Below are positions 14,079 through 17,735 of a stretch of DNA of 43,480 nucleotides, piece by piece. Made by a program: the position numbers and the translations under genes. The stretch is from Anaerolineae bacterium (GTDB lineage Bacteria > Chloroflexota > Anaerolineae > Anaerolineales > DRMV01). Below the pieces are notes generated by a model that searched no databases, had not been told where the DNA came from, and saw only the letters and a program-made list of their open reading frames with translations. The first letter of the stretch is position 1. Each line of letters begins with the position of its first letter. The DNA lies in the NCBI GenBank assembly GCA_011176535.1, contig DUEP01000012.1, positions 1 through 43,480 of the forward strand, given 5' to 3'.

Positions 14079-17000
14079 ATGCCAAAACCCCAGCGCAAAT
14101 ACACCAACCGTCGTTATCTGGACGCCTTAGAAGAACGGGTGCTCATCTACGACGGCGCCATGGGCACCAACCTGCAGAAGTTGAACCTTGCGCCAGAACA
14201 CTACGGCGGCGAGCGTTTCGTCGGCCTCAACGAAATACTGGTGCTCACTTACCCTCAGGCCGTGGAGCAGGTACACCGCTCCTTTTTAGAGGTGGGGGTC
14301 GATGTCATCGAAACCGACACCTTTCGCGCCAACCGCATCACCCTGGCCGAATTCGGCGTGGCCGAAAAGACCCTGGAGATCAACCGCGCCGCCGCCGCGC
14401 TGGCCCGTCGCCTGGCCGACGAATACACCCAACGCACCGGCCAACCGCGCTTCGTGGCCGGTTCGATGGGCCCTACGGGCAAACTTCCCTCGGCCGACGA
14501 CCCCGATCTCTCCGATATCACTTTCGACGAACTGGCTGATGTGTTCCGCGAGCAGGCGGTGGGCCTCATCCAGGGCGGCGTGGATGTGCTGCTCATCGAG
14601 ACCTCACAAGACATTTTAGAAGTCAAAGCCGCCATCCACGGTATACTCCGCGCCTTCGAGGAAACAGGGGAATGGCTGCCCATTCAGGCCCAGGTTACGC
14701 TGGACACCACTGGACGGATGCTTCTGGGCACGGACATCGAGGCCGCCCTGACCATTTTAGAAGGGCTCCCCATCGATGTCATCGGTCTCAACTGTTCCAC
14801 CGGCCCCGAGCACATGCGCCAGCCTATCGAGTTCCTGGGGCAACACGCCCCCTTGCCCGTCTCCTGTATCCCCAACGCCGGGCTGCCGCTCAATGTGGAC
14901 GGTGAGGCCGTCTACCCACTGGAACCCGAACCCTTTGCCGAGGCCCTGGCCGAGTTTGTGGAAAAGCATCACATCAGCGTGGTGGGCGGCTGTTGTGGCA
15001 CCACCCCGGCCCATCTCAAAGCCCTGGTCGAGCGGCTCCACGGCCGCCCACGCCCCCCGCGCCCCATCCTCGACCTGCCTCGTCTGGCCTCCGCGGTGCG
15101 CGCCTACAGCATGAAGCAAGACCCACCCCCGCTGCTCATCGGCGAGCGTTGCAACGCCCAGGGCAGCCGCAAGTTCAAGCGCCTGCTTCTGGCCGAAGAC
15201 TGGGATGGCATCGTGGCCCTGGCCCGCCAGCAAGTGGCCGCCGGCGCCCACGCGCTGGACATCTCAGTGGCCGTCACCGAGCGCAGCGATGAGGCCGAAC
15301 TGATGCGCACGGTGGTGCACAAACTGGTCACCGCTGGCGTGGAGGTGCCTTTGGTCATCGACACCACCGAGCCCAAAGTCATGGAAGCCGCGCTCAAAAC
15401 CGCCCCCGGGCGCTGTGTGCTCAACTCCACCCATCTGGAAGGGGGGCGCGAGAAGGCCGACCGGGTGCTCCACCTGGCCAAACTGCACAACGCCGCGGTC
15501 ATGTTGCTGACCATCGACGAGCAGGATATGGCCAAGACCGCCGAGCGCAAACTGGAGGTGGCCCAACGGCTTTATCGCCTGGCCGTGGAGGAGCACGGCC
15601 TCCAGCCGGGCGACCTGGTCTTCGACCCGCTAACCTTCACTTTGGCCACCGGCGACCCCGAATTTGCCAACGCCGCCGTAGAGACCCTGGAGGGCATCCG
15701 GCGCATCAAGGCGGCGCTGCCGGGTGTGTTCACCTCGCTGGGGGTGAGCAACATCTCCTTCGGCTTGCCCAAGGCCGCTCGCCCAGTGATCAACAGCGTG
15801 TTTCTCTACCACGCCGTCCAGGCCGGGCTGGATATGGCCATCGTCAACCCGGCCCATATTACCCCCTACGCCGACATCCCCGAAGAGGAACGCCAACTGG
15901 CGGAAGACCTCATCTTCAACCGCCGCCCTGACGCCTTGCAGCGGGTGATCGCTTTTTACGAAGGGCGCGAGGCCCGCCCCTCCGCCACCCAGCGGGACCC
16001 GCTGGCCGGGTTGAGTTTGCCCGAACGCCTCCACGCCCGCATCCTCCACCGCCACAAGGAGGGGTTGGGGTTGGAAGGGGACATCGACGCCCTGGTCGCC
16101 GAATGGTCGGCCGATCCCGCCCTCACCCTCACCCCATCCCCCCAGCCCCCCTTCCCCTCTCCCACTGGGAGAGGGGAAGGGGGTGAGGGCACTTCCCCCA
16201 CCCCGGCCACCCATCGGGCCGCGGTGCGCATCCTCAATGAGGTGCTGCTCCCGGCCATGAAAGAAGTGGGCGACAAATTCGGCGCCGGCGAACTCATCTT
16301 GCCCTTCGTGTTGCAATCGGCTGAGGTGATGAAGCGCGCCGTAGCTCACCTGGAGCGCTACCTGCTGCGCCAGGAAGGGGTGACCAAGGGCACCATCGTG
16401 CTCGCCACCGTTTACGGCGATGTGCATGATATCGGCAAGAATCTGGTCAAAACCATCCTGAGCAACAACGGTTACACCGTCATCGACCTGGGTAAACAGG
16501 TCCCTGCCGAAACCATCATTCAGGCCGCTCAAGAGCACCGCGCCGATGCCATCGGCCTCAGCGCCTTGCTGGTCAGCACCAGCAAGCAAATGCCCCTCAT
16601 CGTCAACGAACTCCATCGGCGCGGGTTGCGTTATCCGGTGCTCATCGGCGGCGCGGCCATCAACCGCCGCTTTGGCTATCGCACCCTCTTCACGGAGGAA
16701 GGCAAACCCTACGAACCGGGCGTCTTTTACTGCAAGGATGCCTTTGAGGGGCTGCAAGTCATGGACGCGTTGATGGACACCCGGGAACGGGAGCGCCTGC
16801 TGGAACGCCTGCTCCGGGAAGCGGCCCGCGCCCTGGGGCGGCAACGCCCCTCCGGACCCCGAGGACGGCCTGCGGGGTCCCGAAAGGTGCCCCCGGCCCC
16901 GGATATCCCCCAACCGCCCTCCTGGGGCCCCCGCGTGGTCCGGGAGATGCCCCTGGAAGCGGTGTTCCAACACCTGTTCAAGAAAGACCTGTTCCGCCTC

Positions 17001-17669
17001 TCCTGGGGCGCCAAGAACGCCCACGGTGAAGAATGGGAGCGCCTGCAGGCCGAGTTCGAGGAACGCCTGGCCCGTATGCAACGGGAGGCGCTGCGCCACG
17101 GCTGGCTTCGTCCGCGGGGCGCTTACGGCTATTGGCCCTGTCAATCCCAGGGCGAGACGCTGTTGGTTTATGACCCGGCCTCGGTCGCGGCCGGAGAGCC
17201 TGAGGTGTTGGTCACCTTTACCTTCCCACGCCAGGCGGGCGGCGAGGGGCTTTGCCTGGCCGACTACTTCGCTGCCGTGGATTCTGGCGTGATGGATGTG
17301 GTCGCCCTGCAAATCGTCACCGTGGGCGAGGAAGCTACCGCGCGCTTCGAGGCGCTGCAGGAGGCTGGGGAGTACACCGAAGCCTACTTTTTCCACGGCC
17401 TGGCCGTCCAGACCGCCGAAGCCGCCGCCGAGTACCTGCACCGCCATATCCGCCGCGAGTTGGGCCTGCCTCCCGGACGAGGCAAACGTTACTCGTGGGG
17501 CTATCCGGCCATTCCCGATCTGGAAGACCACGCCGAGGTGTTCCGCCTGCTGCCCGCCGAGCAAGCCCTGGGTATGCGGCTCACCGAGGCCTATCAACTG
17601 GTGCCAGAGCAATCCACAGCGGCCATCATCGTGCACCACCCCCAGGCCAAATACTTCGCCGTGCGGTAA
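14079..17669 (+). CDS. metH: Cobalamin-dependent methionine synthase MetH
   Basis: Transfers the methyl group from 5-methyl-THF to homocysteine through methylcobalamin. 1196 aa, all modules present: homocysteine/zinc domain (residues 1-325; Cys in LNCSTGP near 244 and the CC of GGCCGTTP near 308-309); pterin domain (about 345-630; PPLLIGERCNAQGSRKF, ITPYADIPEEER); B12 cap and B12 domain with DxHxxG, D781-H783 (the axial ligand) in YGDVHDIGKN; and C-terminal reactivation domain with the AdoMet motif RYSWGYPAIPDLEDH near 1137. Two linkers are odd: residues about 681-704 are encoded by a palindromic repeat, and about 920-945 are Pro/Arg-rich. ATG 14079 is preceded by CGAGGA. Controlled by the upstream S-box. 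Confidence 0.97.
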   Translation: MPKPQRKYTNRRYLDALEERVLIYDGAMGTNLQKLNLAPEHYGGERFVGLNEILVLTYPQAVEQVHRSFLEVGVDVIETDTFRANRITLAEFGVAEKTLEINRAAAALARRLADEYTQRTGQPRFVAGSMGPTGKLPSADDPDLSDITFDELADVFREQAVGLIQGGVDVLLIETSQDILEVKAAIHGILRAFEETGEWLPIQAQVTLDTTGRMLLGTDIEAALTILEGLPIDVIGLNCSTGPEHMRQPIEFLGQHAPLPVSCIPNAGLPLNVDGEAVYPLEPEPFAEALAEFVEKHHISVVGGCCGTTPAHLKALVERLHGRPRPPRPILDLPRLASAVRAYSMKQDPPPLLIGERCNAQGSRKFKRLLLAEDWDGIVALARQQVAAGAHALDISVAVTERSDEAELMRTVVHKLVTAGVEVPLVIDTTEPKVMEAALKTAPGRCVLNSTHLEGGREKADRVLHLAKLHNAAVMLLTIDEQDMAKTAERKLEVAQRLYRLAVEEHGLQPGDLVFDPLTFTLATGDPEFANAAVETLEGIRRIKAALPGVFTSLGVSNISFGLPKAARPVINSVFLYHAVQAGLDMAIVNPAHITPYADIPEEERQLAEDLIFNRRPDALQRVIAFYEGREARPSATQRDPLAGLSLPERLHARILHRHKEGLGLEGDIDALVAEWSADPALTLTPSPQPPFPSPTGRGEGGEGTSPTPATHRAAVRILNEVLLPAMKEVGDKFGAGELILPFVLQSAEVMKRAVAHLERYLLRQEGVTKGTIVLATVYGDVHDIGKNLVKTILSNNGYTVIDLGKQVPAETIIQAAQEHRADAIGLSALLVSTSKQMPLIVNELHRRGLRYPVLIGGAAINRRFGYRTLFTEEGKPYEPGVFYCKDAFEGLQVMDALMDTRERERLLERLLREAARALGRQRPSGPRGRPAGSRKVPPAPDIPQPPSWGPRVVREMPLEAVFQHLFKKDLFRLSWGAKNAHGEEWERLQAEFEERLARMQREALRHGWLRPRGAYGYWPCQSQGETLLVYDPASVAAGEPEVLVTFTFPRQAGGEGLCLADYFAAVDSGVMDVVALQIVTVGEEATARFEALQEAGEYTEAYFFHGLAVQTAEAAAEYLHRHIRRELGLPPGRGKRYSWGYPAIPDLEDHAEVFRLLPAEQALGMRLTEAYQLVPEQSTAAIIVHHPQAKYFAVR
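16119..16190 (+). repeat. Palindromic repeat element inserted in frame in metH
   Basis: Nested inverted repeats: outer arms GCCCTCACCC (16119-16128) / GGGTGAGGGC (16181-16190), inner arms CTTCCCCTCTCCC (16151-16163) / GGGAGAGGGGAAG (16167-16179) around an ACT loop. The total of 72 bp is 24 codons, so the frame is kept. It encodes a TPSPQPPFPSPTGRGEGGEG-type peptide between the pterin and B12 modules. This matches the widespread class of GC-rich palindromic repeats that encode TPSPSPxGRGEGG-like peptides when they land in genes. Confidence 0.85.
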
Positions 17670-17735
17670 ATTGCGGAGTGTGGTGCCTCGGCACTGCTTT
17701 GGAGCAGCGTCGGCGTCTTCGCTCACTGGGTGCGC

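Follow-up and report, generated by a model that had tools for sequence, protein, structure and literature searches.

Methionine synthase gene with a palindromic insert

The window, a stretch of 43,480 nucleotides from an Anaerolineae bacterium, contains a gene for cobalamin-dependent methionine synthase (metH) whose reading frame runs uninterrupted through a 72-bp palindromic insert. The features of this locus are collected in Table 1. The peptide encoded by the insert is ALTLTPSPQPPFPSPTGRGEGGEG, and four of its six reading frames are open. A preliminary description of this DNA had reported an insert of exactly 72 bp with perfect 10-nt outer arms, encoding in frame a peptide rich first in Pro/Ser and then in Gly/Arg/Glu; the repeat geometry and the translation of the metH frame both bear this out. 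The inner arms, which had been given as 13 bp, are longer, comprising 18 nt on either side that are perfectly complementary and separated by 1 nt. The copy in the window keeps both of its outward tails, but has only one hairpin. A chance palindrome is ruled out, as the insert is the top-ranking inverted repeat of the window and its 23-nt core, which occupies no second place in the window, had no match in 100 shuffles. An open frame of 698 aa lies opposite metH (15630-17726, minus strand) and is probably a by-product of the high GC content.

Table 1. Features of the metH insert and its surroundings; positions refer to the window.
Feature	Position	Strand	Basis
metH, cobalamin-dependent methionine synthase, 1196 aa, open throughout the insert	14079..17669	+	Open reading frame list, translation, homology to PDB methionine synthases and to metH of relatives
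72-bp palindromic insert, in frame; putative doublet of the TM/PIT/BoxC-type unit that has collapsed to one hairpin, with the tails pointing outward	16119..16190		Inverted repeats; unit model R1; absence from the minimal loops of relatives
Left outer arm (tail) GCCCTCACCC	16119..16128		Complements 16181-16190 perfectly
Left inner arm, 18 nt, pyrimidine-rich	16147..16164		Inverted repeat
Right inner arm, 18 nt, purine-rich	16166..16183		Inverted repeat
Right outer arm (tail) GGGTGAGGGC	16181..16190		Inverted repeat
Complete unit (tail and hairpin)	16154..16190	-	Covariance model R1, E 2.1e-9, model positions 1-35
Second, poorer unit match in the opposite direction, hairpin in common with 16154..16190	16138..16176	+	Covariance model, E 9.5e-6

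The insert lies in a loop of the B12 cap domain

The fragment of MetH encoded by positions 15900-16829 was modelled with AlphaFold2, using 25 homologues from the loci collected (mean pLDDT 81.6). The insert corresponds to residues 74-97 of this fragment and falls in a coil (residues 76-101) between the cap helices 57-70/73-75 and 102-128, with pLDDT values of 54-65 across residues 81-100. Methionine synthases in the PDB align to the fragment up to residue 63 and then again from residue 109 onward. The insert had been assigned to the linker between the pterin and B12 modules; the model instead places it in a surface loop within the B12 cap domain, and the pterin-B12 linker would be an earlier coil, at approximately residues 22-39.

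The unit is dispersed in frame through the genome

A covariance model of the unit (R1) was built from 30 units, none of which came from the genome of the window; the units in the underlying alignment had been selected with a regular expression, which builds in part of its conservation. With an E cut-off of 0.1, the model finds 26 matches at 16 places in this genome, four of these places only above E 0.01, and the best of all matches is the copy in the window. A 111-base query produced 24 BLAST matches in the genome, of which several are at chance level. The frames across the R1 places and two additional BLAST places were inspected, and ten frames were scanned. Nine places lie in frame within conserved genes with homology on either side, namely metH, uvrA, mfd, a uvrD/pcrA-type helicase gene, glyS, hisC, cydC, menD and a gene for an FAD/FeS dehydrogenase. 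The helicase gene holds a second unit copy at a contig end, an amylase-like frame has one weak copy, and the places on C46, C110, C32, C118, C1, C16 and C56 have no gene assignment. The search for further copies of the palindrome that the preliminary description had proposed is thus answered in the affirmative.

Rickettsia palindromic elements are in-frame selfish repeats. The unit described here is likewise dispersed in frame in conserved genes and absent from their orthologues, and in both systems short palindromes sit in frame within genes for functional proteins. The comparison is one by description; the bacteria are different, and the account in which the Rickettsia elements are named makes, in the parts that concern them, no mention of a partner nuclease (PMC3733652).

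One metH loop in three allele states

Among the metH loci examined first, those of seven genomes of the order show a minimal loop from which the element is absent. Within the family of the window genome, two genomes (G002 and G006) have an unrelated short loop, two (G004 and G007) carry other repeats, and one (G011) has palindromes around a DUF559 domain. A metH match was found in 63 of the 80 genomes of family f12; 60 of these loci were analysed, the partial frames of G374, G409 and G370 being left out. A script assigned 12 of the 60 to DUF559, five to a GC palindrome alone, two to other inverted repeats and 36 to none of these, and left five unclassed, of which two (G278 and G398) show DUF559 on reading, for a total of 14/60. 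Four of the palindrome-alone loci are clear and one (G372) is weak. Relatives that lack the element occur in the order, the family and f12, which is the outcome of the check on relatives' metH that had been suggested; the segment is thus no conserved part of MetH proteins. A conserved feature of MetH is ruled out by the wide variation of the loop, both from genus to genus and inside single genera.

The full element in f12 is a doublet, a DUF559 domain and a second doublet in one open frame, and the solo form is a single doublet. In genus g16 the nuclease is found in metH of G041, G103 and G322, and is missing from G028 and G168. In three filled alleles (G322, G103 and G308) and one solo allele (G356) the element starts at the identical host position at the DNA level, and the solo doublet of G356 matches the right-hand doublet of G322 in 72 of 83 columns. 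A single spot in metH is thus empty, occupied by one doublet, or occupied by doublet-DUF559-doublet, and these states differ between species of one genus. The insert has inverted ends; a search of the metH junctions for a target-site duplication gave no definable one, the species being far apart. What is new in this arrangement is the palindrome-DUF559-palindrome in frame at a metH loop which is elsewhere empty or holds the palindrome alone.

The metH assembly of G278 breaks at the DUF559 element (at the starts of contig 3 and contig 42; L096 and L241), and draft genomes therefore under-report full elements. The same loop also hosts unrelated in-frame repeats, which include the ACCACAGATTACACAGATT type, GTAGGGGCGCACGGCCGTGCGCCCCTAC and repeats with the peptides NNQLP, QVDTY and AGxSPAP, in G004 (L025), G007 (L026) and G058 (L031) and in the f12 loci L242, L249, L261, L263, L275 and L283. 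The MetH loop acts as a natural trap in which repeats of several families collect.

DUF559 is a Vsr-like nuclease under purifying selection

DUF559 is a Vsr-like PD-(D/E)XK nuclease; its profile matches the solved DUF559 structure 3hrl (E 2.7e-31) and the mobile-intron homing endonuclease I-Bth0305I (PDB 3r3p, E 8.9e-4). Matches of the profile to PDB enterotoxin B chains are weak and at chance level, and were disregarded. In published work, one gene with DUF559 is placed in the EDxHD homing family (PMC9403480), YcjD is related to Vsr (PMC1189080), and a role in repair is proposed for a Caulobacter DUF559 protein (PMC12907096).

The genome of the window has a single PF04480 match, which lies in frame in uvrA and is flanked by palindromes of a sister type. 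Five further genomes of the family have DUF559 in uvrA with an identical right-hand junction. In uvrA of G014, G004 and G011 (L058, L059 and L061) the left and right palindromes have a common core within each genome, which differs between genomes; this suggests concerted change by gene conversion. Purifying selection acts on the nuclease part, with dN/dS values of 0.02-0.12 for the uvrA copies and 0.07-0.21 for the metH copies, computed from unsaturated pairs only after pairs with saturated synonymous sites had been dropped. In a tree of 135 DUF559 domains, built on few columns, the uvrA copies make up a single clade (100/98) and the intein copies another (100/94). The metH copies of f12 and G023 group with other Chloroflexota rows, and the position of the G011 metH copy is not settled; three of the named loci in the tree (L125, L129 and L149) are identical to G278, G053 and G041. 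The uvrA copies look vertically inherited.

The EDxHD (Vsr-like) homing endonucleases of inteins and introns, such as I-Bth0305I, resemble the present case in that a related nuclease domain lies in frame in conserved genes (3r3p; PMC9403480). They differ from the palindrome-bounded DUF559 domains, which show no splicing domain match and in which the nuclease stays in the host protein. No Intein_splicing match was found in the palindrome-bounded hosts scanned with Pfam, and an intein is unsupported for these. Three DUF559 domains (L100, L103 and L104, in G348, G086 and G077) lie within methylase genes, in intein-like frames free of palindromes, and those of L103 and L104 gave weak Intein_splicing matches. 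Their presence in such frames hints, independently, at a homing role.

Hairpins bound DUF559 across phyla

Hairpins with pyrimidine-first arms of at least 8 nt were sought within 200 nt of DUF559 and in control windows from the same loci. In the phylum set a hairpin is present at 38 of 49 DUF559 domains, on both sides in 21, as opposed to 3 of 98 control windows with none on both sides; 11 of 60 DUF559 matches had been dropped (score below 100 or flank shorter than 200 nt), and one locus, G263 (L071 = L112), may be counted twice. The remaining 11 of the 49 domains have no such hairpin within 200 nt; among them are the intein-borne ones, for which a hairpin is not required. In the named multi-phylum set, which comprises the best 80 of 569 by likeness to Chloroflexota DUF559 and so over-represents that branch, a hairpin is found at 69 of 75 loci (47 on both sides; five of the 80 were dropped for short flanks), against 4 of 150 control windows and 0 on both sides. 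Across phyla, the frames of this DUF559 branch have TM-type units at their borders, whether they stand alone as small genes or lie in frame inside larger proteins.

Open frames of at least 400 aa contain 41 of the 80 named loci, and 26 of these long frames were scanned with Pfam. Restriction-modification proteins account for 16 of the 26; the other ten are the MetH of Stagnimonas, two HrpA-type helicases, three methionyl-tRNA synthetases, three Mur ligases and an EPSP-synthase/NUDIX frame. Host homology extends to both sides of DUF559 in nine (L132, L124, L148, L141, L130, L127, L134, L137 and L138).

Of the 301 phylum genomes, 149 contain the exact core. It is present in 101 of the 142 genomes that have DUF559 and in 48 of the 159 that lack a DUF559 match. 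Counted by family, the ratio is 43/53 with DUF559 against 7/29 without. Overall the association is strong, yet inside families it is weak (Mantel-Haenszel odds ratio 1.5), and this genome-level correlation is therefore not taken as proof of cause. DUF559 is present in each of the 11 phylum genomes that contain 100 or more exact cores.

Relationship to the TM/PIT/BoxC palindromes and to ycjD of E. coli

The unit itself is already known as the TM/PIT/BoxC intrastrand triplex motif (Holder et al., 2015). Besides E. coli, more than 260 genomes from many phyla have been reported to contain such palindromes (PMC4666352). In E. coli MG1655 the TM_ECO motif, previously PIT, has 23 copies, all of them intergenic (Holder et al., 2015; PMC4666352). 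The passages of that study which deal with function report triplex formation by the TM_ECO single strand in vitro and tie the motif to genome instability; they report that no mobility activity was found near TM motifs, and state the mechanism and evolutionary origin as unanswered in 2015 (PMC4666352). There and here, the unit has the form CCCTCTCCC-loop-GGGAGAGGG with a tail ..GGGTGAGGG, and occurs in inverted pairs and in many phyla. The complete unit of the window consists of two pyrimidine blocks, one of them the tail, and one purine block, in the same order as in Table 1 of that study (PMC4666352). The two sets differ in that the MG1655 copies are all intergenic with no mobility gene noted in the account, whereas those described here lie in frame in genes and bound DUF559. 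The intergenic location does not define the sequence family, because it is reported for E. coli only. Judged by its sequence, the metH insert is a member of the TM/PIT/BoxC-type family.

In MG1655, ycjD is a DUF559 gene (PF04480, E 1.4e-49), and its 3' end extends into a degenerate hairpin. TM copy no. 9 of the published table (PMC4666352) lies at 1351204-1351239, 167 bp past the ycjD stop. The number of DUF559-TM neighbours expected within 250 bp in this genome is 0.0035. The ycjD region has a match in 3365 of 5426 E. coli genomes and none in 2061. The E. coli control genome, unlike MG1655 with its ycjD (NC_000913.3:1351204-1351760, L290), has no PF04480 match, and may be a strain without ycjD. 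In a search of mostly open literature, by titles, abstract openings and passages, we found no publication that ties these repeats to DUF559; an earlier description is possible.

Discussion

Our analysis identifies an insertion in metH, relative to the MetH of relatives, by a unit that also has copies scattered, in frame, among other genes of this genome. The absence from relatives and the further in-frame copies support the original suggestion of a mobile palindrome that landed at a tolerated site and left the gene unbroken. We think it likely that the insert is a solitary, non-autonomous mobile palindrome of the TM/PIT/BoxC type, and that such palindromes are the ends or remnants of a nuclease-bearing element which inserts in frame without splicing. 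The full element would be a minimal selfish unit, with one Vsr/EDxHD-like endonuclease of about 110 residues between palindromic ends. From the sequences we infer that the nuclease would be the driver of mobility: it may cut the palindrome or an unoccupied target, and repair of the break would copy the element in. Copies would survive where the frame remains open and the loop is dispensable. The pyrimidine-then-purine arms contain few stops and are translated into a peptide of first Pro/Ser and then Gly/Arg/Glu, so that splicing would be unnecessary. Recombination between the flanking doublets, or loss of the nuclease, would leave solo palindromes, of which the copy in the window, collapsed to one hairpin, may be an example. 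Since the longer form of the unit carries the nuclease, this copy may have been left behind by such an element instead of having landed separately. In favour of the reading are also the left junction common to filled and solo alleles, the hairpins around DUF559, the purifying selection on the nuclease part and its kinship to a homing endonuclease, and the TM motif near ycjD. Counting against it are the phylum DUF559 domains that have no hairpin nearby, the weak association inside families, the vertical look of the uvrA copies and the repair role credited to the Caulobacter protein (PMC12907096).

Whether the proposal can be extended to all of these repeats is, in our estimate, evenly balanced. 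In its general form, the pan-bacterial TM/PIT/BoxC palindromes would be the ends or remnants of minimal elements with DUF559 as their only gene, which colonise loops and linkers in frame without splicing, mainly in restriction-modification and housekeeping genes, and YcjD would be the representative in E. coli K-12.

The alternative with the best standing, which we nonetheless consider unlikely, is that the palindromes spread by another route, such as replication slippage, recombination or another transposase, and that DUF559 uses them as safe sites or rides along. The 48 genomes that have the core without a DUF559 match fit such a route, as does the reported tie of the motif to genome instability (PMC4666352). 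Loop tolerance alone explains part of the pattern, because other palindrome families occupy the metH loop without DUF559. Against this stand the units on both sides of DUF559 across phyla, set beside 0 of 150 control windows, the left junction common to solo and full metH alleles, and the DUF559 in every one of the copy-richest genomes.

Mobilisation as REP/REPIN elements by RAYT tyrosine transposases, as in the GTAG class, appears very improbable. The likeness to these systems (REPtrons) is considerable: palindromic units form REPIN-like inverted doublets, full copies flank a gene for a DNA-processing enzyme, and some REPs are published within open reading frames, uvrA among them (PMC3733652); the genome of the window also has one weak Y1_Tnp match. 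However, the unit consensus, which begins YCCCTCACCC, has neither a GTAG nor a CGTC tag at the hairpin foot, a Y1_Tnp (RAYT) gene is absent from six of the ten copy-richest phylum genomes searched, and the gene between the palindromes encodes a PD-(D/E)XK nuclease instead of a tyrosine transposase.

We give equally little credence to a functional fusion, in which DUF559 would be an ordinary accessory nuclease domain of restriction-modification or repair proteins and the palindromic peptide a linker. Restriction-modification proteins do predominate among the scanned named hosts, and several Chloroflexota hosts are methylases; yet the hosts also include MetH, UvrA, methionyl-tRNA synthetase, an HrpA-type helicase and a Mur ligase, the presence of DUF559 varies within a genus, and these palindromes are also found by themselves and next to stand-alone DUF559 genes. 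Least probable of all is that the 72-bp palindrome is kept for a role of its own in metH, as an RNA hairpin or in pausing or regulation, for although it forms a strong hairpin inside coding sequence, it is absent from the metH of relatives, where other sequences take its place, and the unit is also found in unrelated genes.

With DUF559 bounded by the TM unit across phyla, and ycjD beside a TM motif, the question of the origin of these repeats becomes testable in E. coli K-12. If the mobile nuclease-bearing element is real, it would provide a route for a nuclease gene into essential genes, in frame and without splicing, and would account for many odd inserts of the Pro/Ser-Gly/Arg/Glu kind, and for 'fusions' of DUF559, among the proteins in databases. 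The result suggests how long-unexplained repeats may spread through genes while leaving these intact.
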